Assembly: GCA_030840295.1 (NCBI GenBank)
Contig: JAVEET010000159.1
Location: 1-39,969, forward strand
Direction of reading: 5' to 3'
From: Pseudonocardiales bacterium
GTDB taxonomy: Bacteria; Actinomycetota; Actinomycetes; Mycobacteriales; Jatrophihabitantaceae
DNA: 39,969 nt
The notes under the pieces are model-generated. The model saw only the letters and a program-made list of their open reading frames with translations, searched no databases and was not told the DNA's origin. Both the position numbers and the translations under genes were made by a program. Positions 1-15,844 of the stretch are shown here, piece by piece. The first letter of the stretch is position 1; every line of letters starts with the position of its first letter.

Positions 1-2161
1 GCTCGTCCACCGGATAGTCCCAGGTCAGATCGAGGATCGGGCGGTCGCGCTCATCGGACGAGGAGGCGAGCCGCTCGCGGATCTTGCGACCGAGGTGGAA
101 GAAGAAGTGCAGGTCACTGCGGCAGTCTCCCGGCGGCTCGATCGCCTTCCGGTGCCATTGCAGCATGCGCTGAGTCTGGGTGAAGGTGCCGCCCTTCTCG
201 ACGTGGGAGGCGGCCGGGAAGAAGAACACCTCGGTCGCGATGTCCTCGGTTCTCAGCTCACCGGTCTCGATCTCCGGGCTGTCCTTCCAGAAGGTGGCCG
301 AGTCGATCATGTTCAGGTCGCGTACCACCAGCCATTTCAGGTGGGCCATCCCCAGACGCTGCATCTTGCCGTGCGCGGACCCGACGGCCGGATTCTGGCC
401 CAACAGGAAGTAACCGTCGACCTCGTCGGCAAGCATGTTCATCACAGACTGATAGGTGCCGTGGTCACCGGTGAGTTTAGGCAGGTAATTAAAGGCGAAA
501 TCATTCTCCGGGGTAGCCGCGTCGCCCCAGTACGCCTTGAGCAGGCTGACCGTGTAGTCGCGGGCGTTCGCCCAGAAGCCCTTCTGATCCGGGCTGCAGA
601 TCGTGTCGACATAGGAGTCGAGATCATCATGGGCGCCCACCTTCGGCATCGGCAAGTAGCCGGGAAGCAGGTTGAACAGCGTCGGGATGTCGGTCGAACC
701 CTGGATGCTGGCATGCCCGCGCAGGGCCATGATGCCGCCGCCTGGCCGCCCCATATTGCCCAGCAGCAATTGGATGATCGCCGAGCCGCGGATGTACTGC
801 ACGCCCACCGTATGATGGGTCCAGCCCACCGAGTAGACCCAAGCAGTCGTCCGCTCCCGCCCGCTGTTGGCCGTGACCGCCTCGCAGACCTCGAGGAGAT
901 CCTCCGGCGCGACGCCACACACCTCCTGGACCTTCTCCGGGGTGTAGCGAGCGTAGTGCCGCTTCAGGACCTGGAAGACAGTGCGCGGATTCTGCAGCGT
1001 GGTATCCGTCTGCACCTCACCGTGCGCGAGGGCGGCGCCATGACCGCCCAGTTCATGGCCGGCTCCCCGTGCGGCCTGCGATTCCTCGCTCTCGCCGCCG
1101 GCGTGGGCCGGCGGATTCCTGCTACCCGCCGCAGCCATCCCCTCGACCCCGGCATAACCCCAGGACTCGGTGTCATACGTTGCCGTTTCCGGGTCGTAGC
1201 CGGAGAACACCCCGTCCAGATCGTCGACATCGACGAAGTCGTCCCGCAGGATCGTCGAGGCGTTCGTATACGCCAACACGTACTCCGGGAAGTACTTGTC
1301 GTTGGTCAGGATGTAGTTGATGATCCCGCCGAGGAAGGCGATGTCACTGCCGGCCCGCAGCGGCACGTGCTTGTCGGCCACGGCGGAGGTACGGGTGAAC
1401 CGCGGATCGACGTGAATGACCTTCGCCCCCCGGGCCTTGGCTTCCATGACCCATTGGAAGCCGACCGGATGGCATTCGGCCATGTTGGAGCCCTGGATGA
1501 CGATGCAGTCCGAGTACTGCAGGTCCTGCAGGAAGTTGGTGGCGCCGCCGCGGCCGAATGAGGCCCCCAAACTGGGGACAGTGGCGCTGTGTCAAATACG
1601 GGCCTGGTTCTCGATCTGGATGGCACCCAGAGCGGTGAAGAGCTTCTTGATCAGGTAGTTCTCTTCGTTGTCCAGGGTCGCCCCGCCCAGCGATGCGATG
1701 CCCATCGTGCGGCGCAACGGGCGACCGTGTTCGTCGGTGTCCTGCCAGTGCCGTCGGCGCGCCTCGATGACCCGGTCGGCGATCATGTCGGTTGCCGTCT
1801 CCAGGTCCAGCGGCTCCCAGTTCGAGCTGTGCGGTGCGCGGTACAGCATCGCGGTCTGGCGGCCCGGTGAGTTCACCAGCTGTTCGCTGGCCGAGCCCTT
1901 GGGACACAACCGGCCGCGGCTTACGGGCGAATCCGGGTCGCCTTCGATCTGGATGACCTTCTCGTTCTTGACATAGACCCGCTGACCGCAACCGACCGCG
2001 CAGTACGGGCAGATGCTCTGGACGACACGATCGGCCGTCTGGGTCCGCGCAGTCCAGTTGGCGGTGCGTTCTGACTGGGCGGCAGTGCCACGGCCGAGGG
2101 GATCACTTCCGGTGACCTGGCGAACCACCGGCCATGACAGGAGTGTCTTGCGCAGATCCAC
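1..2161 (-). CDS. fdh: Formate dehydrogenase, selenocysteine-containing catalytic subunit (3' end outside window)
   Basis: Molybdopterin enzyme that oxidises formate to CO2. A GTG start at 2161 opens a 189-codon stretch with a [4Fe-4S] motif, C-P-Y-C-A-V-G-C followed by R-L-C-P-K-G, and ends at an in-frame TGA (1594-1592). The same frame continues through the TGA to position 1 with typical family sequence: N-Q-A-R-I, the TGA, H-S-A-T-V, then S-F-G-R-G-G-A-T-N and later H-V-D-P-R-F-T-R. In FdnG/FdhF enzymes this exact place holds the catalytic selenocysteine, so I read the TGA as Sec, not as a stop. No Tat signal is visible, so the enzyme is probably cytoplasmic. A Gly/Ala/His-rich segment (about 1010-1165) interrupts conserved sequence and looks like a linker insertion. 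The C-terminus runs off the left edge. A cysteine-free pseudogene is the alternative, but frame and motifs are intact. Confidence 0.9.
1563..1594 (-). promoter_or_regulatory. Sec TGA codon and SECIS-like hairpin
   Basis: The TGA occupies 1594-1592. Just downstream in the mRNA, positions 1579-1563 can form a 6-bp stem (GUCCCC with GGGGGC, one U-G pair) closed by the loop AGUUU. The loop GU falls at nucleotides 23-24 counted from the U of UGA. From memory, the E. coli fdhF SECIS has its loop GU at the same distance. Folding was done by eye only. Confidence 0.65.
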
Positions 2162-2261
2162 GAAGGTGCCCTTTCCTCGATACCGGCCACCCTACGCGGC
2201 GGTCGTTGATCATCGAAAGGGCGGACGATCGATCCACCGCGGCGCCCGGCACACTGGAGAC

Positions 2262-2711
2262 ATGACCGATCTAGCAACGAACGAGCTGGGTACGAGCGAG
2301 CTGCTTACCGGCGTCGATGCAGAGCTCGAGCGGTGCCGCATGGGCGTGCGCAGATTGCACCCGGCCGAGGCCTGGCACGCCGCCCAACAGGGTGCGCTGC
2401 TGATCGATACCCGCACCGAGACCCAGCGGGTCGAGCAGGGGGAGCTGCCCGGGTCGATCGTCATCGATCGCACGATCCTGGAGTGGCGTCTGGATCCGAG
2501 CTCGGAGTGGCGGATCCCCGAGGCCGTCGATGCCGGCGTCCTGGCCATCGTGGTCTGCCGGCAGGGCTACAGCTCCAGCCTGGCCGCCGCCAGCCTGCGG
2601 CGCATCGGGCTGCGCCGGGCGACCGATGTGGTCGGCGGGTTCGAGGCCTGGTGCGAGGCGGGGTTACCGCTGGCCGATCCGGCCGTGAACCCGCCGGATA
2701 TCCGTCGCTGA
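2262..2711 (+). CDS. Rhodanese-like domain protein
   Basis: A 149-residue single-domain rhodanese, divergent from the formate dehydrogenase with about 100 bp between them. The active-site loop reads C-R-Q-G-Y-S-S-S with the catalytic cysteine in place. An upstream L-I-D-T-R-T motif and the later V-V-G-G-F-E-A-W are typical of the family. I start it at ATG 2262, where the protein begins M-T-D-L and GGAG lies just upstream; the open frame extends further 5' without family sequence. Rhodaneses carry persulfide sulfur. Its place beside a molybdenum enzyme could hint at sulfur delivery to the cofactor, as FdhD does, but that is inference from position only. Confidence 0.85.
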   Translation: MTDLATNELGTSELLTGVDAELERCRMGVRRLHPAEAWHAAQQGALLIDTRTETQRVEQGELPGSIVIDRTILEWRLDPSSEWRIPEAVDAGVLAIVVCRQGYSSSLAAASLRRIGLRRATDVVGGFEAWCEAGLPLADPAVNPPDIRR

Positions 2712-2717
2712 GCCCGT

Positions 2718-4187
2718 TCAGCTCTCCCGCACGACCTCGTCCGGGGACTTGTCCGTCCGAAGTCCACGCCAGGACGGATGCCGCAACCGGCCGTCGCCGG
2801 TCCACTCGGTGAAACTGACCTCGCCGACCAGCTTCGGCGTGACCCAACGGGCGTCTCGGCTATCGGCCCGCGAAAGCTCGTCCGCGAACGGCGAGCTCGT
2901 GCGCGACAGCGGCATGAGCTTGGCCAGCAGCGTGTCCAGCATCGCATCGGTGAACCCGGTTCCGACGCTACCGACATAGACCAAGCCGCGGTCCTCCGGA
3001 ATGCCCAACAACAATGAGCCGATGGTGCCGGACCGGCGTCCCTTGCCCGGCTTCCAGCCGGCCACGATCACCTCTTGCGCCCGCACGTTCTTGATCTTGC
3101 GCCAGTCCGGTGATCGTCGTCCCGGCTGGTACCGGCTCGCCCGGCGCTTGGCCACGATTCCTTCGAGACCGTTCTCTTGGCTAGCGCGCAGCACGTCCGC
3201 CCCTCGCCCGCTGAAGTATGGCGGGGTCTGCCAGGAGAGCCCGGACAGCTCGAGGCCCTCCAGCAGGGCTCGGCGATCGGTATAGCTGAGATCGAGTGTG
3301 GGGCGGCCATCGAGGTGCAGCAGATCGAAGATCAGGTACACGACCGGATCGGAGGCCGACAGCCTTCTGACATCGGCAGCCTTGGTGACGTGCATCCGGC
3401 GCTGCAAGCGTCCGAAGCTCGGACGGCCGTTTGCACCGAAGGCCACGATCTCACCGTCCAGCACCACCTGCGTCGTACCCAGCGCCTCCCCCAGTAACCT
3501 CAATTCGGGGTAGCTGGCCGAGACGTCCAGGTCGTTGCGGGACAGGATCCGGATTCGGCCGCCGTCGACGAACACCACCGCCCGGGCGCCGTCCCACTTG
3601 GTCTCATAGGCCCACTCAGCATCCTGCTCGGCCGCCGGCAGTTCGCCCGCCACGGCCAGCATCGGGCGGATGATCTCCGGCGGAGCCTGCCAATCCTTGA
3701 CCGTTGGCGGGTCCATCCGGTGCATGATCCAGTTCTTGCCATTGGTCCTGATCAGCACGTAACGGCCTTGTATCCGCTCCCCGGTCAGTACGACCTTGAC
3801 CTCGCGATCGGTCCACTTCTCGCTCTGGTAGTGGCCTCGGTCCCAGATTTTGACCTGGCCGCCGCCGTACTCGCCGGCCGGGATACCGCCTTCGAAGGTG
3901 GCGTAATCGAGCGGGTGGTCCTCGGTCTGGACCGCGAGATGGTTGGCCTTGGGGTCCATTGGCAAACCCTTCGGAACCGCCCAGGAGACCAGGACTCCGT
4001 TACGCTCCAGCCGAAAATCCCAGTGCAACGCCCGGGCGTGGTGTTCTTGCACGACGAAGGTGTCGTCGTTGCCGGTGGGCAATGGCCCCTGCTCGGGAAC
4101 CGGCTCCCGGGTCCTGGTCGCGTGCCGTTTTCGGCGATACTCCTCGAGGGGGTCCGCCCCTCGAGCCCCCGGCGCATGCTCAGCCAT
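2718..4187 (-). CDS. ATP-dependent DNA ligase with N-terminal 3'-phosphoesterase domain (LigD-like, no polymerase domain)
   Basis: 489 residues. Residues about 40-160 form the LigD phosphoesterase domain (E-H-H-A-R-A-L-H-W-D-F-R-L-E, then P-A-G-E-Y-G-G-G). The ligase adenylation domain follows, with nucleophile Lys197 in E-T-K-W-D-G-A-R, motif L-D-G-E-I-V, E-G-I-V-A-K-R, and a C-terminal OB domain (V-G-S-V-G-T-G-F). The primase/polymerase module of full-length LigD is missing. Such split LigD proteins take part with Ku in bacterial end joining or repair; no ku gene is visible here. The start overlaps the end of the DUF72 gene by 8 bp, so the two are probably co-transcribed. Confidence 0.92.
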   Translation of the reverse strand: MAEHAPGARGADPLEEYRRKRHATRTREPVPEQGPLPTGNDDTFVVQEHHARALHWDFRLERNGVLVSWAVPKGLPMDPKANHLAVQTEDHPLDYATFEGGIPAGEYGGGQVKIWDRGHYQSEKWTDREVKVVLTGERIQGRYVLIRTNGKNWIMHRMDPPTVKDWQAPPEIIRPMLAVAGELPAAEQDAEWAYETKWDGARAVVFVDGGRIRILSRNDLDVSASYPELRLLGEALGTTQVVLDGEIVAFGANGRPSFGRLQRRMHVTKAADVRRLSASDPVVYLIFDLLHLDGRPTLDLSYTDRRALLEGLELSGLSWQTPPYFSGRGADVLRASQENGLEGIVAKRRASRYQPGRRSPDWRKIKNVRAQEVIVAGWKPGKGRRSGTIGSLLLGIPEDRGLVYVGSVGTGFTDAMLDTLLAKLMPLSRTSSPFADELSRADSRDARWVTPKLVGEVSFTEWTGDGRLRHPSWRGLRTDKSPDEVVRES

Positions 4188-5022
4188 GTCGCTCGGCCGC
4201 GATGCTCGGCTCGCCCTTCAGCATCCGTTCCAAAGCCATGGCGTCATAGGGAGCTCGAACCTTCACATCGTTGTCGAAGTACACGTACACGTCCATGCCC
4301 CGATCAGCCCACGGCCGAATGCGGTTGGCCCACAGCTCGAGGCCGGCCTGGTCGTACCCGCTGGTGTACAGCTCATCGGCCCCATGCAGGCGGAGGTAGG
4401 CGAAATCAGCCGTGGTCTCGAGGAACTGTGGCCACTTTCCAGCGGTGTCCGCGACGACGACCGCCACCGATTCCTCACGCAGCAGCGTCAAAAACTCCTC
4501 GGTCTTGAAGCTGTCATGGCGGACCTCGAGCGCGTGTCGAAGTGGGCGATCCGACAGCGCGCCCTTCCAGGCACCGTGCTTGAGCCGATCGTCGTGGCGA
4601 CGGGCCAGGTAAGCAGCCTCTCCGGTGGACCGCGGAAGGTGGCCGATGAAGCTGCGCAGCAGCTGCGGATCGAACTTCAGGGTGGGCGGCAGTTGCCACA
4701 GGATCGGGCCGAGCTTTTCACCCAAGGCGAGCACGCCGGAGGCCAGGAAGTTCGGCAGCACCACCCCGACGTCGCGCAGTCGTTTCATGTGGGTGATGAA
4801 ACGCCCACCCTTGACCGAGAACTGGAAGTCGGCCGGGGTCTCGTGCGCCCAGTGCCAGTAACTGGTCGGCCGTTGCAGTGAATAGAACGATCCATTGATC
4901 TCGATGGAGCTGAGGCGTTCGGCGGCGTAGCGCAGTTCGTCGCGATGGGGCAGGCCAGCCGGATAGAAATCCCCGCGCCACGGCGGGTAGGTCCAGCCCG
5001 AGATACCGACACGCACGCTCAT
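4180..5022 (-). CDS. DUF72 family protein
   Basis: 280 residues, beginning M-S-V-R-V-G-I-S-G-W-T-Y-P-P-W and continuing with F-Y-P, S-I-E-I-N-G-S-F-Y, F-S-V-K-G and I-L-W-Q-L-P-P. This is the TIM-barrel-like DUF72 (YecE) signature. The biochemical role of the family is not established. In actinobacteria, DUF72 genes often lie near LigD or repair genes, and here the 8-bp overlap with the downstream PE-ligase supports a shared transcript. The C-terminal part (residues 220-260) keeps the conserved Y-V-Y-F-D-N-D segment. The call rests on the N-terminal motif block, which is distinctive. Confidence 0.9.
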   Translation of the reverse strand: MSVRVGISGWTYPPWRGDFYPAGLPHRDELRYAAERLSSIEINGSFYSLQRPTSYWHWAHETPADFQFSVKGGRFITHMKRLRDVGVVLPNFLASGVLALGEKLGPILWQLPPTLKFDPQLLRSFIGHLPRSTGEAAYLARRHDDRLKHGAWKGALSDRPLRHALEVRHDSFKTEEFLTLLREESVAVVVADTAGKWPQFLETTADFAYLRLHGADELYTSGYDQAGLELWANRIRPWADRGMDVYVYFDNDVKVRAPYDAMALERMLKGEPSIAAERHG

Positions 5023-5042
5023 CCGAGCATCGTACGAGCTAC

Positions 5043-5996
5043 TCAGCCTCGGGCCGCAGCAACGTCGTCGCGGGCTTCGTCCAACGCCGCCCGGGACCGT
5101 TGTTCCAGCTGTCCCGCCTCAGCTCGGCCGCGTCTGGCCGTCCTCAATCCGCTCTTCGCCGACGTGGCTTCTTCCTTCGCCCTCGCCAAGGCCTCCGTCA
5201 GCTCGCTCAGCCGCGACTCGGCCTCGGAGGCCCGCTGCTCGGCTTCAGTGACAGCCTCCTCGGCCTTGCGGACTTCCACCGTGGCCCGCAGCAGTGCCTG
5301 CTCGGCTTCGACGGCGATGGTTTCCAGCTCCGCCCGCCGCTTGCTCTGCGCGGCGTCGGAGGTCCCAAGGGCATCCGAGCTCTTGGGGGCGCGGGCTCGG
5401 GAACGCGGGGCAGCCACCGCGGCCGAGGCATCCACCGCACCGAAGCCGGTGTATTCCAGTGCATCGGTCAACCAGCCCGATCGCACGGCACTCTCGGCAC
5501 CCTCGTCGGCTATCGCGGCCTCGAACGTCGCGCGGGTCTGCCTCAACATCGCGTCATTCGCCGTTTTACCGGCGCCGGTCGCTATTGCCGAGGCCAGATC
5601 CTCCAGTCCCCGTAACTGTTTCTGCCTGGCCTCGGACAGGGCTCGAAGCTCCTTGCCCTTGAGTGACCGGTGTGCGTCGCGGAGCTTGGTGGCCAGCTCG
5701 GACAGCCGATCGATATCGGCCGGGTGAGTTCGGACGATGGCGTTGACGACCCATGCGGCGATCACCGGCTTTTTGAGCTTGGCGATCTGCTTAGCCAACT
5801 CACGATCACCGTGTTGACGAGCCTGAGCAGACAACTCCGAGCGACGCGCCAGGAACTCATCGAGATGCACGGCGTAGAGATCGTCGGCCGCGGCATCGAG
5901 ATCCAGGTCGGCAAGATCCCCGCTATCGAGATCCCCGTTATCGAGATCCCCGCTATCGAGATCCCCGCTATCGAGATCCCCGTTGTGGAGATCCAT
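5043..5996 (-). CDS. Coiled-coil protein of unknown function with repetitive acidic N-terminus
   Basis: 317 residues. The first about 30 are a degenerate five-residue repeat (G-D-L-D-S / G-D-L-D-N) encoded by 15-bp tandem DNA repeats. A conserved-looking segment follows (D-L-Y-A-V-H-L-D-E-F-L-A-R-R, then L-K-K-P-V-I-A-A-W-V-V-N), then Ala/Glu/Arg-rich sequence with heptad character from about 215 to the end, a likely long coiled coil. No catalytic motif is recognisable. Actinobacterial proteins with this K-K-P-x-x-x-A-W-x-x-N segment exist as uncharacterised families. The start ATG shares one base with the ROK stop codon (TGATG), so translation is coupled. A downstream start after the repeats is possible, but none has an obvious ribosome site. 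Confidence 0.75.
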   Translation of the reverse strand: MDLHNGDLDSGDLDSGDLDNGDLDSGDLADLDLDAAADDLYAVHLDEFLARRSELSAQARQHGDRELAKQIAKLKKPVIAAWVVNAIVRTHPADIDRLSELATKLRDAHRSLKGKELRALSEARQKQLRGLEDLASAIATGAGKTANDAMLRQTRATFEAAIADEGAESAVRSGWLTDALEYTGFGAVDASAAVAAPRSRARAPKSSDALGTSDAAQSKRRAELETIAVEAEQALLRATVEVRKAEEAVTEAEQRASEAESRLSELTEALARAKEEATSAKSGLRTARRGRAEAGQLEQRSRAALDEARDDVAAARG

Positions 5997-5999
5997 CAG
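5910..5999 (-). repeat. 15-bp tandem repeat, about six units
   Basis: Plus-strand units ATCGAGATCCCCGTT/GCT are exact or one base different at 5925-5939, 5940-5954, 5955-5969 and 5970-5984. Degenerate units flank them at 5910-5924 and 5985-5999. The period is a multiple of three, so copy-number change would keep the frame. The array encodes the N-terminal repeat of the coiled-coil protein and reaches the ROK stop codon. Confidence 0.95.
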
Positions 6000-7171
6000 G
6001 AACTGCTGTCAGGGGAAAGGACCAAGGCACCTGCGCCGATCAGCTGGGCGTTCTCGGCGAGCGTCCCGATTCGCACGGCCAGGTCTCGGACCATATCCGG
6101 CTGGGCGAAGCGGTCAAGTGAATCCCGGACTCCGACCAGAAGCGGTTCACCGGCCAACGCCAACTCACCACCGAGCACCACCACACCCGGATTGAGATTG
6201 TTGACCATGTCGGCGAGCACCCGGCCGATCAACCGCCCCGCGTCGCCGAGCACCCGGTTGGCCCCGGCGTCCTCGAGCCGAACCAGTTCGGCCAGCCGGG
6301 TCATGGTCAAAGTCTCCTCGTGCGCCGGCTGCAACATCGCCAGCACCTGGGTCACCGAGGCTACGGATTCCAGACAACCCCGGTTGCCGCAGCGGCAGAC
6401 GGCCCCGGCGGGATCGATCGGTACATGCCCGATCTCCCCGGCCCGGCCGGTGGATCCGCGATAGAGCCGGCCGCCCAGCACCAGGCCGGCGCCGATGCCG
6501 GTCGAGGCCTTCACGTAGATGACATCGGTAAAGCTGCGTGCCGCGCCGAATGCCATCTCCCCCAATGCCCCGAGGTTGGCGTCGTTCTCGACCTGCACCG
6601 GTAGCTCCAGGGCGGCCTGGAGTTCGTCGGCCGGATGGCGATCGACCCATTGCGGTAACACGTTTCCTGGTCCGACAGTGCCCCGGACCGTGTTCACCGG
6701 CGCCGGCAGGCCGATGGCAGCCCCGACCACCCGGTGGCGATCCGTGCCTAGCCCGGACAGGAGTTCGGCCACCATCGCACGAGCCCGCTCGAGCGCGCCG
6801 ACCGGCGAGGAGTCGACGTCAAGAATGGCCGAGCGAACGGCGAGGACACGTCCGAGGGCGTCGATCACGCCGGTCCGACAGTGACTGTGCCCGAAGTCGA
6901 TTCCGATGGACAGGTCGCTGGTAGGTGCCAGCACCAGGCGCCGGGACGGGCGACCAGCCCGTCGTTCGGTCAGTTGATCGCCGGCGATATCGAGCAACCG
7001 CTGTTCGGCGAGCAGTTCTCCGACGAGATCAGTGACGGTGCTGCGGGCCAGGCCAGTCGTCGCACCTATCTGTGCCCTCGTCGCGGAACCGGTGCGGCTC
7101 AGCGCATCCAGAATCCGGCCTCGGTTGAACTCCCGCAGGGCATCGGTCGAGCGCTGATTCGGATCTGCCAC
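5996..7171 (-). CDS. ROK family transcriptional regulator
   Basis: About 391 residues from GTG 7171. An N-terminal winged helix-turn-helix (R-A-Q-I-G-A-T-T-G-L-A-R-S-T-V-T-D-L-V) is followed by the ROK sugar-kinase-like fold: D-F-G-H-S-H, the E-N-D-A-N motif, G-T/S-G-I-G-A-G-L-V, and the zinc motif C-R-C-G-N-R-G-C-L-E. The open frame extends to 7219, but those residues do not fit the family, so I prefer the GTG giving M-A-D-P-N-Q. It is divergent from a secreted GH3 glucosidase, which fits a sugar-responsive repressor of glycan use, probably acting in the 7172-7355 interval. The kinase-type phosphate-binding site appears partly degenerate, as usual for regulators of this family. Confidence 0.9.
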   Translation of the reverse strand: MADPNQRSTDALREFNRGRILDALSRTGSATRAQIGATTGLARSTVTDLVGELLAEQRLLDIAGDQLTERRAGRPSRRLVLAPTSDLSIGIDFGHSHCRTGVIDALGRVLAVRSAILDVDSSPVGALERARAMVAELLSGLGTDRHRVVGAAIGLPAPVNTVRGTVGPGNVLPQWVDRHPADELQAALELPVQVENDANLGALGEMAFGAARSFTDVIYVKASTGIGAGLVLGGRLYRGSTGRAGEIGHVPIDPAGAVCRCGNRGCLESVASVTQVLAMLQPAHEETLTMTRLAELVRLEDAGANRVLGDAGRLIGRVLADMVNNLNPGVVVLGGELALAGEPLLVGVRDSLDRFAQPDMVRDLAVRIGTLAENAQLIGAGALVLSPDSSS

Positions 7172-7244
7172 CGGCCGAGCATAGAAGCATGAGGGGCGAT
7201 TCGGGATCGCGGCGGGCAATTATGCCTGACCCGCGGCTCAATAT

Positions 7245-7296
7245 CCGGACAAATTCGGCGTGAAGCGGCCTGTTACGCCTATTGACCGGATAAATT
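7245..7296. promoter_or_regulatory. Candidate operator: two direct repeats between ROK and GH3 genes
   Basis: CCGGACAAATT at 7245-7255 and CCGGATAAATT at 7286-7296 differ at one base. Their starts are 41 bp apart, about four helical turns. They lie in the divergent intergenic region upstream of both the ROK and glucosidase genes, where an operator is expected. No binding data; assignment to ROK is inference. Confidence 0.35.
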
Positions 7297-7355
7297 AGAT
7301 CCCGCTACTCTGCGCACATCTTACCTACCCTGAGTAATCGAGAGGTGCCTCGACG

Positions 7356-10300
7356 ATGCGCAGAACACGGACCACATCTCGGCCGTCCAGCTCCGGACGC
7401 AGCCGCTCGGCCCGCGCCGGCGCGGTCGCGGCCATCGGTTGTGCCGCCCTGGTCACCGGGCTCTTCACGGTGTTCACCGGCGCTACCGCATCGGCAGTCG
7501 CCGGTCCGCTACCGGTCGTCGAGGACTTCGAAGGCAACGTGCCCATCACCACCAGCTCGCCGGGTATCTTCCCCTTCGGCGGGGATGGCCCGAGCACGCC
7601 GGTGCTCACGGTTCAGGCGGCCGCCGACCGCCCCGGGGCGCCCGCCGGAAACCATGCACTCGACGTCCCCTACAGCGTCACCAGTTACGGCGGTTTCAGC
7701 AACAACCTCGCGGCACCGGAGAACTGGTCCGGATACGCGGGTTTCAGCTTCTGGGTCAAGGGAAACGGCTCCGGACAGCGGGTCGAATACGAGATCAAGG
7801 ACGGTGGCAGCGACGGCGAGCACTCCGAGTTGTGGCAGGGTTTCTTCACCGACTCCACCGCCGGCTGGCAACACGTGCAAACCCCGTTCGCCAACCTGGT
7901 CAAGCGCGGCGATTACCAGCCACCGGGCGCCCCGACGGACGGCGTCCTGAACCTGACCGCGATGTGGGGCCTGGCCGTCAACCTGCCGGCGGCCAGTGGC
8001 CACCTGGTGTTCGATGACTTCGCTGTGTACGGAAACGCCACCCCCAGCGTGACGGCGGTGCCAAGCACATACCTGGTCGACGCCGGTAAGACGGCGTCGG
8101 TCGGGGTCAGCGTGAACACGCCCGACGGTAAGCCGACCGCGGCGCCAGTGACCGTCACGTACACGCTCGGTGGCGGAACCGCCGTCCCCGGCACCGATTT
8201 CACCGCCGCGACCGGCACGCTGAACTTCCCGGCCGGAACGGCATCGGCCACCGCACAACACATTCCGGTGACTGTCACCGGGGGTACGCCGGCCTCGGTG
8301 GCCAAGACGATTCCCGTCACGCTGAGCGCGGACGGCGCAACCCTGCGCGGTTCCTCCCCCACTGTGGTCATCAACGCCCATGGCCTGCCCTACCTAAACA
8401 AATCACTGCCGACCGCCACCCGGGTCGCTGACCTGATGTCGCGAATGTCTGCGGCGGACAAGATCGGTCAGATGACCCAGGCCGAACGGGCTGCAGTGGG
8501 CAACGGCAGCGATATCACCAAGTACAAGTTGGGTTCGCTGTTGTCCGGTGGCGGTTCGGTGCCCGCCTCGAACACCGCGAGTGGATGGGCGGACATGGTC
8601 GACGGCTACCAGACTCAGTCGCTGAGCACGCCGCTGCAGATTCCAATGATCTACGGCATCGACTCGGTCCACGGCGACAACAACCTTGCCGGAGCCACGA
8701 TCTTTCCGCACAACATCGGCATCGGTGCCTCACGCGACCCGGCGCTGGCGGCCGCGGAAGGAGCGGTGACCGCGACCGAGACCCGGGCCACCGGTATTCC
8801 CTGGGCCTTTGCGCCGTGCGTCTGCGTGACCCGCGATCCCCGCTGGGGACGCAGTTATGAGTCCTTCGGTGAGGATCCGGCGCTGGTCAGCCAGCTCGAG
8901 ACGATCATCGACGGCCTGCAGGGCAACGGCAACCTGGCCAAGAACACCGCCGTGCTGGCTACCGCCAAGCACTTCCTCGGTGATGGTGGTACGAAGTACG
9001 GCTCCTCGACCACCGGCAACTACAAGATCGACCAGGGCGTTACCTACGTGACGCAGGCCCAGCTCGATGCGCTCTACGTGGCGCCCTTCAAAACCGCGGT
9101 CGACAAGGGCGTCGGCTCGGTCATGCCGTCGTACTCGTCGCTGCAGATCCTCGGCCAGGACGCGGCCCCGATCAAGATGCACGCTCGGGGCGACCAGATC
9201 ACGGGCGTACTGAAGAACCAGCTGGGCTTCAAGGGCTTCGTGATCAGTGACTACGCCGCTATCGATCAGATCAGCCCGGATTACCAGAACGACGTCAAGA
9301 TCGGCATCAATGCCGGCCTGGACATGATCATGGTGCCGAACAACTACCAGAGGTTCATCACCGACCTGACGGCGCTGAACACCAGCGGTGACGTCAGCAC
9401 CGCACGCATCGATGATGCGGTGTCCCGGATCCTCGGTCAGAAATTCGCGCTCGGACTGTTCGAGCACCCGTTCGCGGACCGGACGAACGCCGACACCATC
9501 GGATCGGCGTCGCACCGCGCGGTTGCCCGGACCGCAGCGGCCGAATCCCAGGTGCTGCTCAAGAACGACCAGAACGTACTGCCGGTGAAGAAGACCGCCA
9601 AGATGTACGTGGCCGGCTCAGTGGCCGACAACGTGGGCAACCAGAGCGGTGGCTGGACGCTGAGTTGGCAGGGTCAGTCCGGCAACATCCCGGGAGGCAC
9701 GTCGATCCTCACGGGTATCAAGCAGGTCGCGCCGCAGGCGACGGTGACCTATTCCGGTGACGCCAGCGCGCCGACAGCCGGCTACGACGTCGGCATCGTG
9801 GCCGTCGGCGACACCCCGTATGCCGAAGGCATGGGCGACGTCGGCGTCAACGGTCACACCCTGCAGTTGAGCGTGAGCGATCGCGACGCGGTGGACAAGG
9901 TGTGCGCCGCCATGAAGTGCATCGTGCTGGATGTGTCCGGGCGTCCGTTGGACCTCACCGGCATCGTGCCCGAGGCCAACGCGATCGTCGCGTCCTGGTT
10001 ACCCGGTTCCGAAGGGGCCGGCGTCGCCGACGTGCTGTTCGGCAACAAGGCGTTCACCGGCCGGCTCCCGGTCACGTGGGTCAAGGCGGAGAGCCAGTTG
10101 CCGCTCAATGTGGGCGACAAGAACTACGACCCGCTGTATCCGTATGGCTGGGGTCTGCGCACGGATTCGGCCCGGGACCGATTGCAGAAGGTTCGGGATC
10201 AGCTCCAGGTGCAGCCCGGGACCTCGCCGGCGGTCAAGGCCTTGAACTCGGTGCTGACCGCGAAGTATTGGAACTCTGACGGTTCGGCGCGCAAGGCCGA

Positions 10301-10613
10301 TGAGGTCTTGGCCCTGCTGAAGAAGGTTGGCGCTGCCATGGCCGATACCGCCAAGTACAGCTTCACCCAGCAGGATCTGGTCGTGTCGGTTGCTCGGGAT
10401 CTGGCGCAGGCCGCCATCGTGGCACGCGGGGCGTCCGCGATGACCGCCACGGCGACGCTGACTTCCGGCGCGGAACACAGCATCGTCAGCGGCCAACCGG
10501 CTGAGGCAATCACCGCGCTGATCAAGGCACGGTCCGCTGCCCTGCAGATTCCGTCAGCCGGATCGGGGCGGCCGGGCGGATCGGGGCGGGCCGCCGCAAC
10601 GCCGCGGCGATAG
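7356..10613 (+). CDS. Secreted glycoside hydrolase family 3 beta-glucosidase with N-terminal accessory domains
   Basis: 1085 residues. An Arg/Ser-rich N-terminus and hydrophobic segment (about 22-46, ending A-T-A-S-A) form a signal peptide. A beta-sandwich like CBM11/CIA30 carbohydrate-binding domains follows (about 50-225: V-E-D-F-E-G ... F-S-F-W-V-K-G-N-G-S-G ... F-D-D-F), then a Calx-beta-like domain (about 230-340). The GH3 N-domain begins near 345 (D-K-I-G-Q-M-T-Q), with I-D-S-V-H-G, D-P-R-W-G-R and A-K-H-F; the predicted nucleophile is Asp632 in F-V-I-S-D-Y. The GH3 C-domain covers about 710-925. An about 150-residue tail of unknown role follows. It probably cleaves terminal beta-linked glucose outside the cell. 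A GAGAGG site precedes the ATG. The divergent ROK gene is the likely regulator. Confidence 0.92.
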   Translation: MRRTRTTSRPSSSGRSRSARAGAVAAIGCAALVTGLFTVFTGATASAVAGPLPVVEDFEGNVPITTSSPGIFPFGGDGPSTPVLTVQAAADRPGAPAGNHALDVPYSVTSYGGFSNNLAAPENWSGYAGFSFWVKGNGSGQRVEYEIKDGGSDGEHSELWQGFFTDSTAGWQHVQTPFANLVKRGDYQPPGAPTDGVLNLTAMWGLAVNLPAASGHLVFDDFAVYGNATPSVTAVPSTYLVDAGKTASVGVSVNTPDGKPTAAPVTVTYTLGGGTAVPGTDFTAATGTLNFPAGTASATAQHIPVTVTGGTPASVAKTIPVTLSADGATLRGSSPTVVINAHGLPYLNKSLPTATRVADLMSRMSAADKIGQMTQAERAAVGNGSDITKYKLGSLLSGGGSVPASNTASGWADMVDGYQTQSLSTPLQIPMIYGIDSVHGDNNLAGATIFPHNIGIGASRDPALAAAEGAVTATETRATGIPWAFAPCVCVTRDPRWGRSYESFGEDPALVSQLETIIDGLQGNGNLAKNTAVLATAKHFLGDGGTKYGSSTTGNYKIDQGVTYVTQAQLDALYVAPFKTAVDKGVGSVMPSYSSLQILGQDAAPIKMHARGDQITGVLKNQLGFKGFVISDYAAIDQISPDYQNDVKIGINAGLDMIMVPNNYQRFITDLTALNTSGDVSTARIDDAVSRILGQKFALGLFEHPFADRTNADTIGSASHRAVARTAAAESQVLLKNDQNVLPVKKTAKMYVAGSVADNVGNQSGGWTLSWQGQSGNIPGGTSILTGIKQVAPQATVTYSGDASAPTAGYDVGIVAVGDTPYAEGMGDVGVNGHTLQLSVSDRDAVDKVCAAMKCIVLDVSGRPLDLTGIVPEANAIVASWLPGSEGAGVADVLFGNKAFTGRLPVTWVKAESQLPLNVGDKNYDPLYPYGWGLRTDSARDRLQKVRDQLQVQPGTSPAVKALNSVLTAKYWNSDGSARKADEVLALLKKVGAAMADTAKYSFTQQDLVVSVARDLAQAAIVARGASAMTATATLTSGAEHSIVSGQPAEAITALIKARSAALQIPSAGSGRPGGSGRAAATPRR

Positions 10614-10689
10614 GGATTCCGCTGGTGATCAACTCGCCCTTTTGGGGCCCTTACAACACCGGTTTTCGCGAGTTGATCACCAGCAATCC
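10614..10689. repeat. 17-bp perfect inverted repeat with 30-nt spacer
   Basis: GCTGGTGATCAACTCGC at 10621-10637 is matched by its exact reverse complement at 10668-10684. GGATT at 10614-10618 and AATCC at 10685-10689 extend the stem across a two-base bulge. It starts right after the GH3 stop codon and no T-run follows. It may act as a terminator for the glucosidase, or it may be one copy of a dispersed palindromic element. Confidence 0.85.
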
Positions 10690-10756
10690 TGGTAATTTTT
10701 CGGATGTCGTCGGCGTGGCGAATTCGACGCACGCGGTCGGCTGAGAGGGTCCGGAC

Positions 10757-11452
10757 ATGGCCAACGCTCCGGGCAGCCCACAGCACCCCTCGAACCGACC
10801 CCGTTCGCTCCACGCGGTGGCGACCGGCCTCCGGCTTAGTTGCTCAGTGCTGGTCGGCGCCGTAGCCGCCGTGATCACGGTGCTGGCAGGCGCGCCGACG
10901 TACGCTCCGGCGATCGGATGGGACGCCCTGGCGATCACCCTGCTGACCTGGACCTGGCTCAAGATCTGGCCGATGGGAGCCGAGGCGACCACAACTCACG
11001 CCACCCGGGAGGATCCGACCAGGCCCGTCAGCGATGTGATCGTGCTCAGCGCGGCTGTGGCCAGCCTGGCCGCCGTCGGTTTCTTCCTGCTCCAGGCCAG
11101 TTCGGCCAAGGGCTCCAGTCAGGACGTGCTGGCCGCCACCGGGGTCGCGACCGTCGCCCTGTCCTGGTTCGTCGTGCACACCGTGTTCGTGCTTCGGTAT
11201 GCACTCCTCTACTACACCGGCCACGACGGCGGCGTGGACTTCAACCAACCGACGCCACCCCGGTACAGCGACTTCGCCTACTTGGCCTTCACGCTCGGCA
11301 TGACGTTCCAGGTATCGGACACCGATCTTCAGACGCCGGCCATCCGAGCCACCGCGCTACGGCACGCACTGCTGTCCTACCTGTTCGGAGCGGTCATCCT
11401 CGCCACCACCATCAACCTGGTGGCTGGGTTGGGCACCAGCAGCGGCGGTTAG
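10757..11452 (+). CDS. DUF1345 family membrane protein
   Basis: 231 residues with about four to five hydrophobic segments (near 28-47, 51-72, 90-112, 122-145 and 205-227). The conserved DUF1345 pattern is visible: W-D-x-x-A near residue 55, F-V-V-H-T-x-x-x-L-R-Y-A-x-x-Y-Y, F-x-x-P-x-x-P-x-Y-S-D-F-x-Y-L-A-F-T-L-G-M-T-F-Q-V-S-D-T. The family's function is unknown. It stands alone: a palindrome separates it from the GH3 gene and 94 bp separate it from hypA. It could be co-transcribed with the hydrogenase genes, but nothing in the sequence requires that. Confidence 0.9.
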   Translation: MANAPGSPQHPSNRPRSLHAVATGLRLSCSVLVGAVAAVITVLAGAPTYAPAIGWDALAITLLTWTWLKIWPMGAEATTTHATREDPTRPVSDVIVLSAAVASLAAVGFFLLQASSAKGSSQDVLAATGVATVALSWFVVHTVFVLRYALLYYTGHDGGVDFNQPTPPRYSDFAYLAFTLGMTFQVSDTDLQTPAIRATALRHALLSYLFGAVILATTINLVAGLGTSSGG

Positions 11453-11546
11453 CGCCGGTGGGTGCTTTCCCGGCCGATGCGGCGTAGCTTCCACCTGGGT
11501 AGTAGCGCCAAGCCCTGGTTCGGTCGCCGACGAAATGATCATGCCC

Positions 11547-11876
11547 ATGCACGAACTCGCCATTGCTCAGAGCGTGGTCGATGCTGTGCTCGACCGGTTG
11601 CCGGAGAACCGGGTGACGCGGGTCGTCCTGCAGGTGGGAAAGCTGTCAGGTGTCGAGCCTGACGCGTTGCGGTTCTGCTTCGACCTGGCCGTCGCCGACA
11701 CGGCGTTGGACGGTGCCGAACTGGAGATCGTCGAGCCGGCCGGCCTGGCCTGGTGCGAGACCTGCCGGACGGAGTTCGGGCTGAGCCGTCCGATACTGCT
11801 TTGTGCCTGCGGTAGCGCGGATGTCCGCGTCATCAGTGGCGACCAGTTGCTGATCAGCTCGGTAAAGGTGGCCTGA
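11547..11876 (+). CDS. hypA: Hydrogenase nickel-insertion protein HypA
   Basis: 109 residues. HypA works with HypB to insert nickel into the hydrogenase large subunit. Two upstream in-frame ATGs exist (11535, 11541), but I choose 11547 because it gives M-H-E-L: the N-terminal Met-His-Glu binds nickel in this family, and an extension would spoil it. The zinc domain reads C-E-T-C ... L-C-A-C-G-S, so the second pair is C-x-C where E. coli HypA has C-x2-C. It is the first gene of the hydrogenase locus, with hypB starting two bases after its stop codon. No strong ribosome site is visible for any of the three ATGs. Confidence 0.93.
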   Translation: MHELAIAQSVVDAVLDRLPENRVTRVVLQVGKLSGVEPDALRFCFDLAVADTALDGAELEIVEPAGLAWCETCRTEFGLSRPILLCACGSADVRVISGDQLLISSVKVA

Positions 11877-11878
11877 TC

Positions 11879-12766
11879 ATGTGCGCTACGTGTGGCTGCG
11901 GCCACGAGGAGCAGATCCGATTCACCACGGTCGGCGCGCCGGAGCCTGGCCAATACCGCCAACCTGAGCACCTCGAGGACCACCCGCACCCGCACTCGCA
12001 CGAACACGGACACGGACATCACGGGGAACCTGCTCGCGAACATGAACACCCACACCCACACCCACACCCGAACGGATCCGTTCATTCGCAACCGTCCGGC
12101 CGCACGGTGCCGCTGGCGCAGCGCATCCTGGCCAAGAACGATCAGCAGGCCGACCGCAATCGGGCCTGGCTCGCCGAGCGGCAGGTCGCGGTCGTCAATC
12201 TCATGAGCGCCCCCGGATCGGGAAAGACCACGCTCCTGGAGCGCACCATCGCCGAGGTCGGCCCTCGCTTCGGATTGTCGGTCATCGAGGGCGATCAGGA
12301 AACACTGCTCGACGGTGAACGCATCCGGGCAACCGGGTGCCGGGTCGTGCAGATCAACACCGGCGCCGGCTGCCATCTCGACGCCGACATGATGGCCCGA
12401 GGCTTGGCCGAACTCGCACCGTCGCCCGGCTCGCTGGTGGTCGTGGAAAACGTCGGCAACCTGGTCTGTCCGGCGCTCTTCGATCTGGGCGAGACCTACC
12501 GGGTTGTGGTCACGTCGGTGACCGAGGGAGCCGACAAGCCACTGAAGTATCCCCAGATGTTCGCCGTCGCGGACCTTGTCCTGATCAACAAGTCCGATCT
12601 GCTTCCGTACCTCGATGTCGAAGTCTCCGAGTTCGAGAAGAACGTCCGACAGGTGAATCCGGCCGCGCAGCTGCTTACTCTGTCGGCTACCCACGGTGAC
12701 GGAATGATCGCCTGGTATGGCCGGCTCGAACTGCTTGTAACCAGGTTGACAGCTGCCCCGCCTTGA
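11879..12766 (+). CDS. hypB: Hydrogenase nickel-insertion GTPase HypB
   Basis: 295 residues. It opens M-C-A-T-C-G-C-G-H, matching the C-x2-C-G-C high-affinity metal motif. A His-rich region (about 34-70), many His-Pro and His-Glu pairs, follows and is probably a nickel store. The GTPase domain has a P-loop near 111-117 (A-P-G-S-G-K-T), E-G-D-Q-E-T, the metal-site T-G-A-G-C-H-L-D-A, E-N-V-G-N-L-V-C-P and N-K-S-D. It uses GTP hydrolysis to drive nickel delivery with HypA, encoded immediately upstream. The stretch coding for the His region is locally repetitive (CACCCA units near 12045-12066). Confidence 0.96.
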   Translation: MCATCGCGHEEQIRFTTVGAPEPGQYRQPEHLEDHPHPHSHEHGHGHHGEPAREHEHPHPHPHPNGSVHSQPSGRTVPLAQRILAKNDQQADRNRAWLAERQVAVVNLMSAPGSGKTTLLERTIAEVGPRFGLSVIEGDQETLLDGERIRATGCRVVQINTGAGCHLDADMMARGLAELAPSPGSLVVVENVGNLVCPALFDLGETYRVVVTSVTEGADKPLKYPQMFAVADLVLINKSDLLPYLDVEVSEFEKNVRQVNPAAQLLTLSATHGDGMIAWYGRLELLVTRLTAAPP

Positions 12767-12872
12767 CAGGCCGCGGAGAGCGGCGTAGCAAGATCAATGC
12801 GTCGTGTACGCCGCAAACCACTGGCTCCGACGACGTGATAGGGCCTCCAATCGCAGGTCCTTTTCGTTGGGG

Positions 12873-13937
12873 ATGGCGCCGATGCCGACAGCCGAAGCGA
12901 TCAAGGCCGAAGACACCCTCATCCACGTCCTGTGGATAAATGCCGGGCTCAGTTGTGATGGCGACTCGGTAGCCCTCACCGCGGCGACCCAACCCAGTAT
13001 CGAGGAGATCGCGCTCGGCGCCTTGCCCGGCCTACCCAAGATCGCCGTCCACTGGCCGCTCATCGACTTCGAGTGCGGGCCCAACGGGGGCGCGGACGAC
13101 TTCCTGGAATGGTTCTTCAAGGCCGACCGGGGCGAACTCGACCCCTTCGTGCTCGTCGTCGAGGGATCGATCCCCAACGAATCACTGAAGGACGAGGGTT
13201 ACTGGTGCGGGTTCGGCAATGACCCAGCCACCGGTCAACCGGTCACGACCAGCGAGTGGCTGGACCGGCTGGCGCCCAAGGCCCTCGCCATCGTCGCAGC
13301 CGGAACCTGTGCCACGTACGGGGGAATCCACGCGATGGCAGGAAACCCAACGGGGGCGATGGGGGTGCCCGACTACCTTGGCTGGGACTGGAAGTCCAAG
13401 GCCGGCCTACCGATCGTCTGTGTGCCCGGCTGCCCGATCCAACCGGACAACCTGTCGGAGACGCTGACCTACCTGTTGTACCAAGCCACCGGTCAGGCAC
13501 CGATGATTCCGCTGGATGAAGCCCTTCGGCCCACCTGGCTGTTCGGCAAGACGGTGCACGAAGGTTGCGATCGTGCCGGGTACTACGAGCAGGGCGATTT
13601 CGCGACCGAGTACGGCTCACCGAAGTGCATCGTCAAGCTCGGCTGCTGGGGTCCGGTTGTCAAGTGCAACGTCCCCAAACGAGGCTGGATGAACGGAATG
13701 GGCGGCTGCCCCAATGTCGGCGGCATCTGCATCGGCTGCACGATGCCGGGCTTCCCGGACAAGTTCATGCCGTTCATGGACGAGCCGCCGGGTGGCAAGA
13801 TCTCGACCACGGCGGTCGGTGCCTACGGGACGGCCATCCGCAAACTGCGCAGCGTGACTACCAGAACGGTCGACAAAGAGCCCAAGTGGCGGCATCGCGG
13901 CGACACGCTTACCACCGGTGCCCGACGTACCTGGTAG
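12873..13937 (+). CDS. hhyS: [NiFe]-hydrogenase small subunit, group 1h (actinobacterial high-affinity type)
   Basis: About 354 residues from ATG 12873 (12882 is an alternative; a GTG at 12804 opens the frame but adds non-conserved residues). It carries the Fe-S clusters that take electrons from the active site. At the proximal cluster the sequence reads C28-D-G-D31 where most small subunits have C-x-G-C. The crystal structure of the Ralstonia actinobacterial-type enzyme showed one Asp and three Cys there, so this marks group 1h. Further cluster cysteines lie in G-T-C-A-T-Y-G-G, C-V-P-G-C-P, P-K-C-I-V-K-L-G-C-W-G-P and G-G-C-P-N-V-G-G-I-C-I-G-C. No Tat signal is present, so it is exposed to the cytoplasm. 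hhyL follows after 107 bp. Annotation pipelines sometimes mislabel such proteins HypE. Confidence 0.95.
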   Translation: MAPMPTAEAIKAEDTLIHVLWINAGLSCDGDSVALTAATQPSIEEIALGALPGLPKIAVHWPLIDFECGPNGGADDFLEWFFKADRGELDPFVLVVEGSIPNESLKDEGYWCGFGNDPATGQPVTTSEWLDRLAPKALAIVAAGTCATYGGIHAMAGNPTGAMGVPDYLGWDWKSKAGLPIVCVPGCPIQPDNLSETLTYLLYQATGQAPMIPLDEALRPTWLFGKTVHEGCDRAGYYEQGDFATEYGSPKCIVKLGCWGPVVKCNVPKRGWMNGMGGCPNVGGICIGCTMPGFPDKFMPFMDEPPGGKISTTAVGAYGTAIRKLRSVTTRTVDKEPKWRHRGDTLTTGARRTW

Positions 13938-14044
13938 TCCTCCGCTCATGCCCCCTCACGTGTCGCATAAGACCGTTGCCCGTGTCAGCCGGCGCGGACT
14001 TTCAGCAGGATCTACATGATCTATCAGTGCGAGAGGACCCGGGC

Positions 14045-15844
14045 ATGACCTCAACGAAGGCGTCGCCACAGCACAGCGGGAGCGCGGGCAACGGTAGCGA
14101 TCTTGTCGAGATGTCGTGGGATCCGATCACTCGCATCGTCGGGAGCCTGGGCATCTACACCAAGATCGACTTCAAGCAACGAGTGGTGGCCGAGTGCCAC
14201 AGCACCTCGTCGATCTTCCGCGGCTACTCCATTTTCATGAAGGGCAAGGACCCTCGCGACGCGCACTTCATCACCAGTCGAATCTGCGGGATCTGCGGGG
14301 ACAACCACGCGACCTGCTCCTGTTACGCCCAGAACATGGCCTACGGGGTAAAGCCACCGCACCTCGGCGAATGGATCGTCAACCTGGGCGAAGCCGCCGA
14401 GTACATGTTCGACCACAACATCTTCCAGGAGAACCTGGTCGGCGTGGACTACTGCGAGCGGATGGTCTCCGAGACCAACCCCGGCGTGCTGGAACAGGCC
14501 AACCATGCCGAGGCGCCGCACGCCGGGGATCACGGGTACAAGACCATCGGCGACATCATGCGATCGCTCAACCCGTTCACGGGCGAGTTCTACCGAGAGG
14601 CGCTGCAGGTCAGCCGCTCGACGCGGGAAATGTTCTGCCTGATGGAAGGACGCCATGTCCACCCATCCACCCTCTATCCGGGCGGGGTCGGCACCGTCGC
14701 GACCATTCAGTTGATGACCGACTACATAACCCGGCTGATGCGCTACGTCGAGTTCATGAAGAAAGTCGTCCCGATGCACGACGACCTCTTCGACTTCTTC
14801 TACCAGGCTCTTCCCGGTTATGAGCAGGTCGGACTGCGCCGGACCCTGTTGGGGTGCTGGGGCTCGTTCCAGGACCCTGAGTACTGCAACTTCGACTACA
14901 AGGACATGACGCAGTGGGGCCGGAAGATGTTCGTCACGCCAGGCGTGGTGGTGGACGGCAAGCTGGTCACCACGAACCTGGTGGATATCAATCTGGGCAT
15001 CCGCATCCTGCTCGGCAGTTCCTACTACGAGGACTGGGAAGGCCAGGAGATGTTCGTCAAAAACGATCCCCTCGGCAATCCGGTCGACCGTAGGCACCCG
15101 TGGAATCAACACACGAACCCGCGCCCCCGGAAGCGGGACCTCGATGACAAGTACAGCTGGGTAATGTCGCCGCGGTGGTATGACGGCAAGGACTACCTCG
15201 CACTGGACACCGGCGGTGGCCCCCTCGCCCGGTTGTGGTCGACGGCTCTTGCCGGTCTCGTCGACATCGGCTACGTCAAGTCGACGGGTTCGAGCGTCCA
15301 GATCAACCTGCCGAAGACGATCCTCAAGCCCCCGGTCACGTTCGAGTGGAAGATCCCGCAGTGGAGCAACACCATCGAGCGCAACCGTGCGCGCACTTAT
15401 TTCCAGGCCTATGCCGCAGCCTGTGCCCTCCATTTTGCCGAGAAGGCGCTGGTTGAGATCAGGGCCGGGCACACCAAGACGTGGGAGTCGTTCGAGGTGC
15501 CGGACGAGGGAATCGGCTGCGGCTTCACCGAGGCCGTGCGAGGTGTCCTGTCGCACCACATGGTGATCCGCGACGGGAAGATCGCCAACTACCACCCCTA
15601 TCCACCGACGCCGTGGAACGCCAGCCCCCGCGACAGCTATGGGACACCGGGCCCCTACGAGGACGCCGTGCAGGGCCAGCCCATCTTCGAGGAGAACGAT
15701 CGGGAGCACTTCAAGGGAATCGACATCATGCGCACCGTCCGCAGCTTTGATCCGTGCCTGCCCTGCGGCGTGCACATGTACCTCGGCGAGGGCAAGACCC
15801 TCGAGAGGGTGCATACCCCGACCGGCGCGGTGGGAGCCGATTAG
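14045..15844 (+). CDS. hhyL: [NiFe]-hydrogenase large subunit, group 1h
   Basis: 599 residues; binds the NiFe(CN)2CO centre that splits H2. The L1 motif is R-I-C81-G-I-C84-G-D-N-H and the L2 motif D-P-C571-L-P-C574-G-V-H577, supplying the four nickel-binding cysteines. Residues 578-599 form a 22-residue C-terminal extension, expected to be removed after His577 by the protease encoded at 20477 once nickel is in place. The overall sequence closely resembles Streptomyces and mycobacterial HhyL, which oxidise H2 at atmospheric concentration in air. I start it at ATG 14045 with GAGAGGA upstream; the open frame extends to 13565, but that part only reads through hhyS in another frame. Confidence 0.97.
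   Translation: MTSTKASPQHSGSAGNGSDLVEMSWDPITRIVGSLGIYTKIDFKQRVVAECHSTSSIFRGYSIFMKGKDPRDAHFITSRICGICGDNHATCSCYAQNMAYGVKPPHLGEWIVNLGEAAEYMFDHNIFQENLVGVDYCERMVSETNPGVLEQANHAEAPHAGDHGYKTIGDIMRSLNPFTGEFYREALQVSRSTREMFCLMEGRHVHPSTLYPGGVGTVATIQLMTDYITRLMRYVEFMKKVVPMHDDLFDFFYQALPGYEQVGLRRTLLGCWGSFQDPEYCNFDYKDMTQWGRKMFVTPGVVVDGKLVTTNLVDINLGIRILLGSSYYEDWEGQEMFVKNDPLGNPVDRRHPWNQHTNPRPRKRDLDDKYSWVMSPRWYDGKDYLALDTGGGPLARLWSTALAGLVDIGYVKSTGSSVQINLPKTILKPPVTFEWKIPQWSNTIERNRARTYFQAYAAACALHFAEKALVEIRAGHTKTWESFEVPDEGIGCGFTEAVRGVLSHHMVIRDGKIANYHPYPPTPWNASPRDSYGTPGPYEDAVQGQPIFEENDREHFKGIDIMRTVRSFDPCLPCGVHMYLGEGKTLERVHTPTGAVGAD

Follow-up and report, generated by a model that had tools for sequence, protein, structure and literature searches.

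A very probable selenocysteine formate dehydrogenase gene beside selD, selC and the start of selA in a Pseudonocardiales draft genome, with a possible codon constraint just 5' of its UGA

Close precedents for a selenocysteine (Sec) formate dehydrogenase (FDH) of the kind described here are already published for Streptomyces and Actinomycetospora. In Actinomycetospora chiangmaiensis DSM 45062, FDH1 has, as here, a Sec-containing membrane-bound alpha subunit (1078 aa) together with a beta and a gamma subunit. In that study SelA and SelB are encoded in the same cluster, formate removal was selenium-dependent, with an almost negligible build-up of formate in the presence of selenite, and the FDH1 subunits, SelA, SelB and SelD were all among the low-abundance proteins detected in the proteome (PMC7176365). 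The study lists a permease in the cluster and gives SelD without a cluster label, whereas here selD and selC lie between the fdh genes and selA (PMC7176365). The FDH-O locus of Streptomyces incarnatus NRRL8089, likened by description only, has the same arrangement, and no difference in kind was found (PMC4498112). A comparative survey lists cases in which the Sec trait passed from one actinobacterium to another, among them one with Nakamurella multipartita as donor and an Arthrobacter as recipient (PMC5029168); an earlier survey counts Actinobacteria among three phyla rich in selenoprotein families, largely by way of Symbiobacterium (PMC1794560).

The gene order found here is also that of the plasmid pYA7-1a of Arthrobacter sp. 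YA7-1 (NZ_CP110115), which carries fdh, the 4Fe-4S subunit gene, nrfD, a convergent selD, tRNA-Sec, selA and selB. Unlike our locus, that cassette is plasmid-borne, the plasmid being typed as conjugative, and a Tn3-family transposase gene adjoins selB. The cassette spans positions 4537-14410 of this record (L298).

FdnG, FdoG and FdhF of Escherichia coli share with the present enzyme an active-site Sec that is followed by His, as seen in the one E. coli copy compared (L290); that copy has GTC before the TGA, where the present gene has ATT. In the SECIS element of E. coli fdhF the loop GU stands at nucleotides 23-24, as it does here. SelB brings Sec-tRNA to a UGA that has such a hairpin downstream, and the active-site Sec of FDH ligands molybdenum or tungsten. 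The E. coli enzyme has a twin-arginine signal; by eye, no RR motif was seen in the first 25 residues of the present fdhA product. The three-subunit feature of FDH-N-type enzymes is present, with genes for a 4Fe-4S beta subunit and a membrane subunit adjoining fdhA; the membrane subunit is NrfD-type and not cytochrome-b-type as in E. coli FdnI. We filed fdhA with the actinobacterial family rather than with FDH-N itself.

The window, i.e., the whole stretch of 39,969 nucleotides analysed, is one contig (C122) of a draft genome of 4.65 Mb in 375 contigs. The features discussed below, in the window and in a second contig (C70), are as follows.

Window 2161-1, minus strand: fdhA, formate dehydrogenase alpha subunit, residues 1-720 (profile NF041513 and two domains)
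Window 1597-1595, minus strand: Ile codon ATT, codon 189, directly 5' of the Sec codon (ATC avoided family-wide)
Window 1594-1592, minus strand: in-frame TGA, codon 190, very probably read as Sec (frame and homologue comparison)
Window 1579-1563, minus strand: SECIS apical hairpin, stem 1579-1574/1568-1563, loop 1573-1569 (AGUUU), GU at 1572-1571
Window 2262-2711, plus strand: rhodanese-domain gene (PF00581), divergent from fdhA
C70 3379-4293, strand opposite to the fdh genes: selD (SelD, 398 bits)
C70 4397-4488: selC, tRNA-Sec with UCA anticodon (78 bits)

Codons of fdhA are numbered from the GTG at 2161, upstream of which the frame stays open for only about 10 codons more. The gene is truncated by the contig edge, and the window holds its 5' two thirds. 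With the TGA written as U, this part translates into 720 residues, which belong to an FDH alpha subunit and include Molybdop_Fe4S4 and Molybdopterin domains. The actinobacterial profile NF041513 (formate_DH_Act) matched residues 6-719 at model positions 2-709 of 1067 with 1315 bits, to be read against a cut-off of 1400 that applies to the whole protein, not to a part cut by the contig end. A reading made from the letters of this stretch, the sequence-only reading, had taken the TGA for a Sec codon in an intact frame, and we found the frame open in both directions around 1594-1592, with N-Q-A-R-I before the codon and H-S-A-T-V after it, as claimed. Its expectation that automatic callers would split such a gene in two fared poorly: the homologue in pYA7-1a is annotated as a single CDS of 3333 bp running across the TGA.

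The first 127 bases of the window coincide exactly with the start of C70, on the opposite strand. There fdhA carries on for 431 codons, the first 42 of them in common with the window, followed by the genes of the 4Fe-4S beta subunit (Fer4_11 domain) and of the NrfD-type membrane subunit (NrfD domain). Across the join of the two contigs the order is therefore fdhA-fdhB-nrfD, the convergent selD, selC and the start of selA. The selA gene is split over two contig ends, its remainder opening contig C278 together with selB. The N-terminal part of SelA scored 145 bits and the C-terminal part 326 bits, the latter above the cut-off, as was SelB with 282 bits. From the gene order in relatives, a join of C70 to C278, and hence an unbroken selA-selB here, is likely. 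The prediction that the genome should carry selA, selB, selC and selD thus held in profile searches of the contigs, with selA in two pieces.

We compared the Sec site in 118 distinct homologous copies (127 readable ones with identical stretches merged), drawn from the best 80 of 131 places (79 loci) and from the genomes searched. The codon was TGA in 111, TAG in three, TGC in three and TGT in one, so that UGA, UAG or a Cys codon all occur at the same FDH site. The closest relative among the matches listed (L096) was 97% identical. For the order, 61 genomes were sampled, our own included; the site had TGA in 32 and TAG in three. Sec use had been called sparse in actinobacteria, a view that sits poorly with a Sec codon at this one site in 35 of the 61 genomes and with selA above the cut-off in 40 of the 61. 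Sec FDHs are common across the order.

Among the near-complete genomes (completeness of 90% or more, contamination of 5% or less; 45 genomes, counted by hand), selA was above the cut-off in 29/29 with the Sec codon compared to 2/16 without it (Fisher p 7e-10), and tRNA-Sec showed the same split, 29/29 and 2/16. The genome searches for selB and selD cover our own genome only. In two near-complete genomes (G013 and G029) the enzyme has TGC at the site and no selA was found. G031 and G051 have selA and tRNA-Sec with no Sec codon found in this enzyme, and in G027 (86% complete) the enzyme has a Cys form while both are kept; in these three genomes Sec presumably serves another protein or proteins. 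Four incomplete TGA genomes, 63-82% complete, had gaps in the machinery found: neither selA nor tRNA-Sec was detected in G020 (79% complete), the search for selA was negative in G023 (76% complete), and that for tRNA-Sec was negative in G005 and G035. A genome of the same genus as ours (G007, 85% complete) has a Cys form of the enzyme (L135), 63-64% identical, and no selA was found in it; either Sec was replaced or lost within the genus, or there is an assembly gap.

The three TAG genomes (G059, G038 and G050; L115, L118 and L119, also L202-L204) belong to one family. They carry a tRNA-Sec (RF01852 match) with a CTA anticodon, labelled tRNA-Pyl by ARAGORN. UAG-coded Sec was reportedly described by Mukai et al. 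in 2016 in Geodermatophilus and Blastococcus.

The hairpin had been proposed as a six-bp stem with the loop AGUUU, its GU at nucleotides 23-24, and we recovered the same structure: counting U of the UGA as 1, nucleotides 16-21 pair with 27-32 through five G-C pairs and one U-G pair, and the loop occupies nucleotides 22-26 with GU at 23-24. Folded alone, a 24-nt piece formed 7 pairs at -10.9 kcal/mol, A22-U26 being paired too. In a 52-nt context the single-sequence fold was ordinary (z -0.19) and a larger fold was preferred, in which the apical stem-loop was retained. Since the folding energy alone proves nothing, the case for the hairpin rests on comparison.

Five of the pairs (16-32, 18-30, 19-29, 20-28 and 21-27) are formed in all 114 Sec copies. 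Pairs 16-32, 19-29 and 20-28 are invariant and give no evidence either way. Pair 18-30, which links two synonymous third positions, occurs as T-A in 69 copies, C-G in 35, T-G in 7 and G-T in 3, and pair 21-27 as C-G in 108 and T-A in 6; the best of 1000 shuffles, which take no account of kinship among the copies, reached 97/114 and 111/114, respectively. Pair 17-31 is formed in 102/114 copies, no better than in shuffles because position 17 is invariant. The loop GU at 23-24 is present in 114/114 Sec copies and in 0/4 Cys copies (L135, L199, L200 and L201). In the printed sequences of each of the latter, inspected by eye, at least two stem pairs are broken, with pairs 18-30 and 19-29 each broken in three of the four. 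The hairpin also holds four of the five most constrained codons among 650 scored: codon 197, in the loop (AGT or GGT), shows the strongest synonymous bias, and codons 195, 199 and 196 rank third to fifth.

Given these comparisons, it is almost certain that fdhA encodes a selenoprotein, with UGA 190 decoded by tRNA-Sec(UCA), SelB and the hairpin, and with SelA and SelD making the Sec-tRNA. The claim of Sec decoding was strengthened from three sides: by the sel genes in the genome, by selD, selC and the start of selA beside the gene, and by a hairpin that covaries in the Sec copies and breaks in the Cys copies. The two other accounts of the TGA that we weighed have little room left. That the TGA is a sequencing artefact, or a true stop in a broken, decayed gene, might be entertained for a fragmented draft of 375 contigs. 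Against this, the TGA recurs in the 97%-identical genome as well as in 111 of the 118 distinct copies and co-occurs with selA, the genome-search matches with a stop at the site have no other internal stop, and synonymous positions of the hairpin covary; a sequencing error, which the sequence-only reading had named as a refuter, is therefore most unlikely, and we consider error or decay extremely improbable. That UGA is read otherwise, with a suppressor tRNA inserting Trp or Cys or through plain readthrough, is very improbable as well. Nothing positive spoke for it in an analysis that, of UGA-reading tRNAs, covered tRNA-Sec, while a tRNA-Sec (UCA) and SelB are present, the TAG at the site goes with a CTA anticodon on tRNA-Sec, and the near-complete genomes that have the enzyme and lack selA have TGC. 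A code with UGA as a sense codon was rejected on the conservation and the sel genes.

In Sec decoding as we picture it, SelB would bind the hairpin, which begins 12 nucleotides past the UGA, with GU exposed in the loop, and would deliver tRNA-Sec(UCA) to UGA 190; SelA and SelD would produce the Sec-tRNA. The Sec incorporated at codon 190 would take the place of the Cys of related enzymes and serve as a ligand to the metal. The beta (4Fe-4S) and NrfD-type subunits would hand electrons on to the membrane. We infer that the enzyme works in the direction of formate oxidation and that the organism oxidises formate, with electrons going to the membrane. The locus adds a further selenoprotein gene, and most of the genes needed for its decoding are visible in one block.

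The linkage is widespread among relatives. Of the 87 homologous loci examined, 66 had at least 7.5 kb downstream of fdhA; fdhB and nrfD followed on the same strand in 66/66, and selD was present in 57, selA in 46 and selB in 44. Sec FDH genes frequently travel in compact cassettes, in one case on a plasmid that is typed as conjugative. The plasmid cassette is an expansion of the genetic code that could be transferred in one piece.

The one codon among the top five that lies outside the hairpin is codon 189, the Ile codon directly 5' of the Sec codon (position -1), which ranks second of 650 in synonymous bias. In the 114 Sec copies (loci L022-L138) it is ATT in 82, ATA in 30, ATC in one and GTC in one, the GTC copy being from the proteobacterium Roseicella. 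ATT or ATA therefore accounts for 112 of the 113 copies with Ile at -1. Conversely, the other Ile codons of the same genes, 3323 in number, are ATC in 3031 cases (91%), ATT in 241 and ATA in 51. Binomial p values for such counts take related sequences to be independent and are not to be accepted at face value. A tree from which codons 185-205 had been left out implies 20 or more changes at codon 189; nearly all the changes are between ATT and ATA, because ATC and GTC occur once each. The link between codons -2 and -1 is weak (CGT-ATT 62, CGC-ATA 23; sign-test median p 0.02, range 0.004-0.29).

A second set consisted of 63 Sec FDH genes from the same phylum, matched by TIGR01591. The aligned set had 71 loci (L139 and L214-L283; 63 with TGA and 8 with Cys) and is a part of the TIGR01591 matches: 30 stored ones, 40 chosen for one TGA in the row, and L139, the other TGA rows being left out. 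Where Leu stands at -1 the codon is TTG in 18, TTA in 12 and CTT in 2, so that CTG or CTC occurs in 0/32 compared to 19.9 expected from the same genes. Thr is encoded by ACC in 12 and ACT in 8 (ACG 0 compared to 8.0 expected), Ala by GCC in 6 and GCT in 2 (GCG 0 compared to 3.6 expected) and Val by GTT in 3. We also took fourteen plasmid records; two of these have Cys (L284 and L289), and another two, L286 and L291, showed no site readable with the search pattern and were left out. Two more actinobacterial plasmid copies have ATT (L296) and ATA (L297) at -1, and a Sec copy from Thermomicrobium (L287) has ATA. The rule fails in Pseudomonadota, since GTC stands at -1 in 8/8 proteobacterial Sec FDH copies that could be read (L098, L285, L288, L290, L292, L293, L294 and L295).

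Predicted folds of 57 copies gave a UGA accessibility of 0.56 with ATC at -1 compared to 0.78-0.82 otherwise; accessibility was higher with ATT than with ATC in 50 of the 57 copies and lower in one. Changes at the control codon 183 produced a smaller shift, 0.075, in 42 copies. On the other hand, ATC raised the predicted probability of the apical stem (0.66 compared to 0.53-0.56). For Leu, TTA and TTG gave a predicted apical stem of 0.70-0.71 compared to 0.52-0.60 for CTT, CTG and CTC; the predicted UGA accessibility was improved by TTA only. ACG and GCG, never seen at -1, had predicted folds that were no worse. According to these models, RNA folding may account for the -1 codon bias in part only.

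The preference for ATT and ATA before the Sec codon suggests a recoding signal that extends 5' of the UGA in actinobacterial Sec FDHs. That the synonymous choice at -1 belongs to this signal, being selected about as strongly as the SECIS loop and setting the balance between Sec insertion and termination, we put at about even chances. The wobble pair in the P site could mediate the effect; alternatively, the codon could keep the UGA unpaired. Several points speak for a bias produced by descent, or by any factor other than selection linked to Sec decoding: the 114 copies are related, the proteobacterial copies read all have GTC, ACC and GCC are commonest in two other FDH groups and neither is a rare codon, and some synonymous bias occurs beyond the signal, e.g., at codons 92, 320 and 682. 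We nevertheless think such an origin rather unlikely, as 18 other conserved Ile sites have ATC in 71-98% of copies, the codon has changed repeatedly on the tree, and TTA, TTG or CTT fills all 32 Leu cases in the second set. Among the matches listed in a literature search (titles and abstract openings, few subscription journals covered), none seemed to be an earlier report of a -1 codon bias. Experimental confirmation of the constraint would widen the bacterial SECIS rule in the upstream direction, with benefits for gene finding and for engineered Sec insertion in high-GC hosts; it is this synonymous constraint that merits following up.

Some further observations concern the window and the genome. 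The rhodanese-domain gene was dropped as a candidate member of the system: of 82 loci, just 3 have such a gene within 1.5 kb upstream of fdhA, and two of these 3 (L096 and L133) are one contig; plasmid homologues of the gene were uninformative. A Rfam search of window positions 1-12000 gave nothing at the gathering score. Elsewhere in the genome, contig C265 of our own assembly (G000) holds a second formate dehydrogenase-like gene (L139), which matches TIGR01591 below the cut-off and has Cys (TGC) at the Sec site. Finally, we noticed by eye a short tandem repeat around ATCGAGATCCCCG at window positions 5900-6000, near the start-codon end of the minus-strand ORF 5043-5996.
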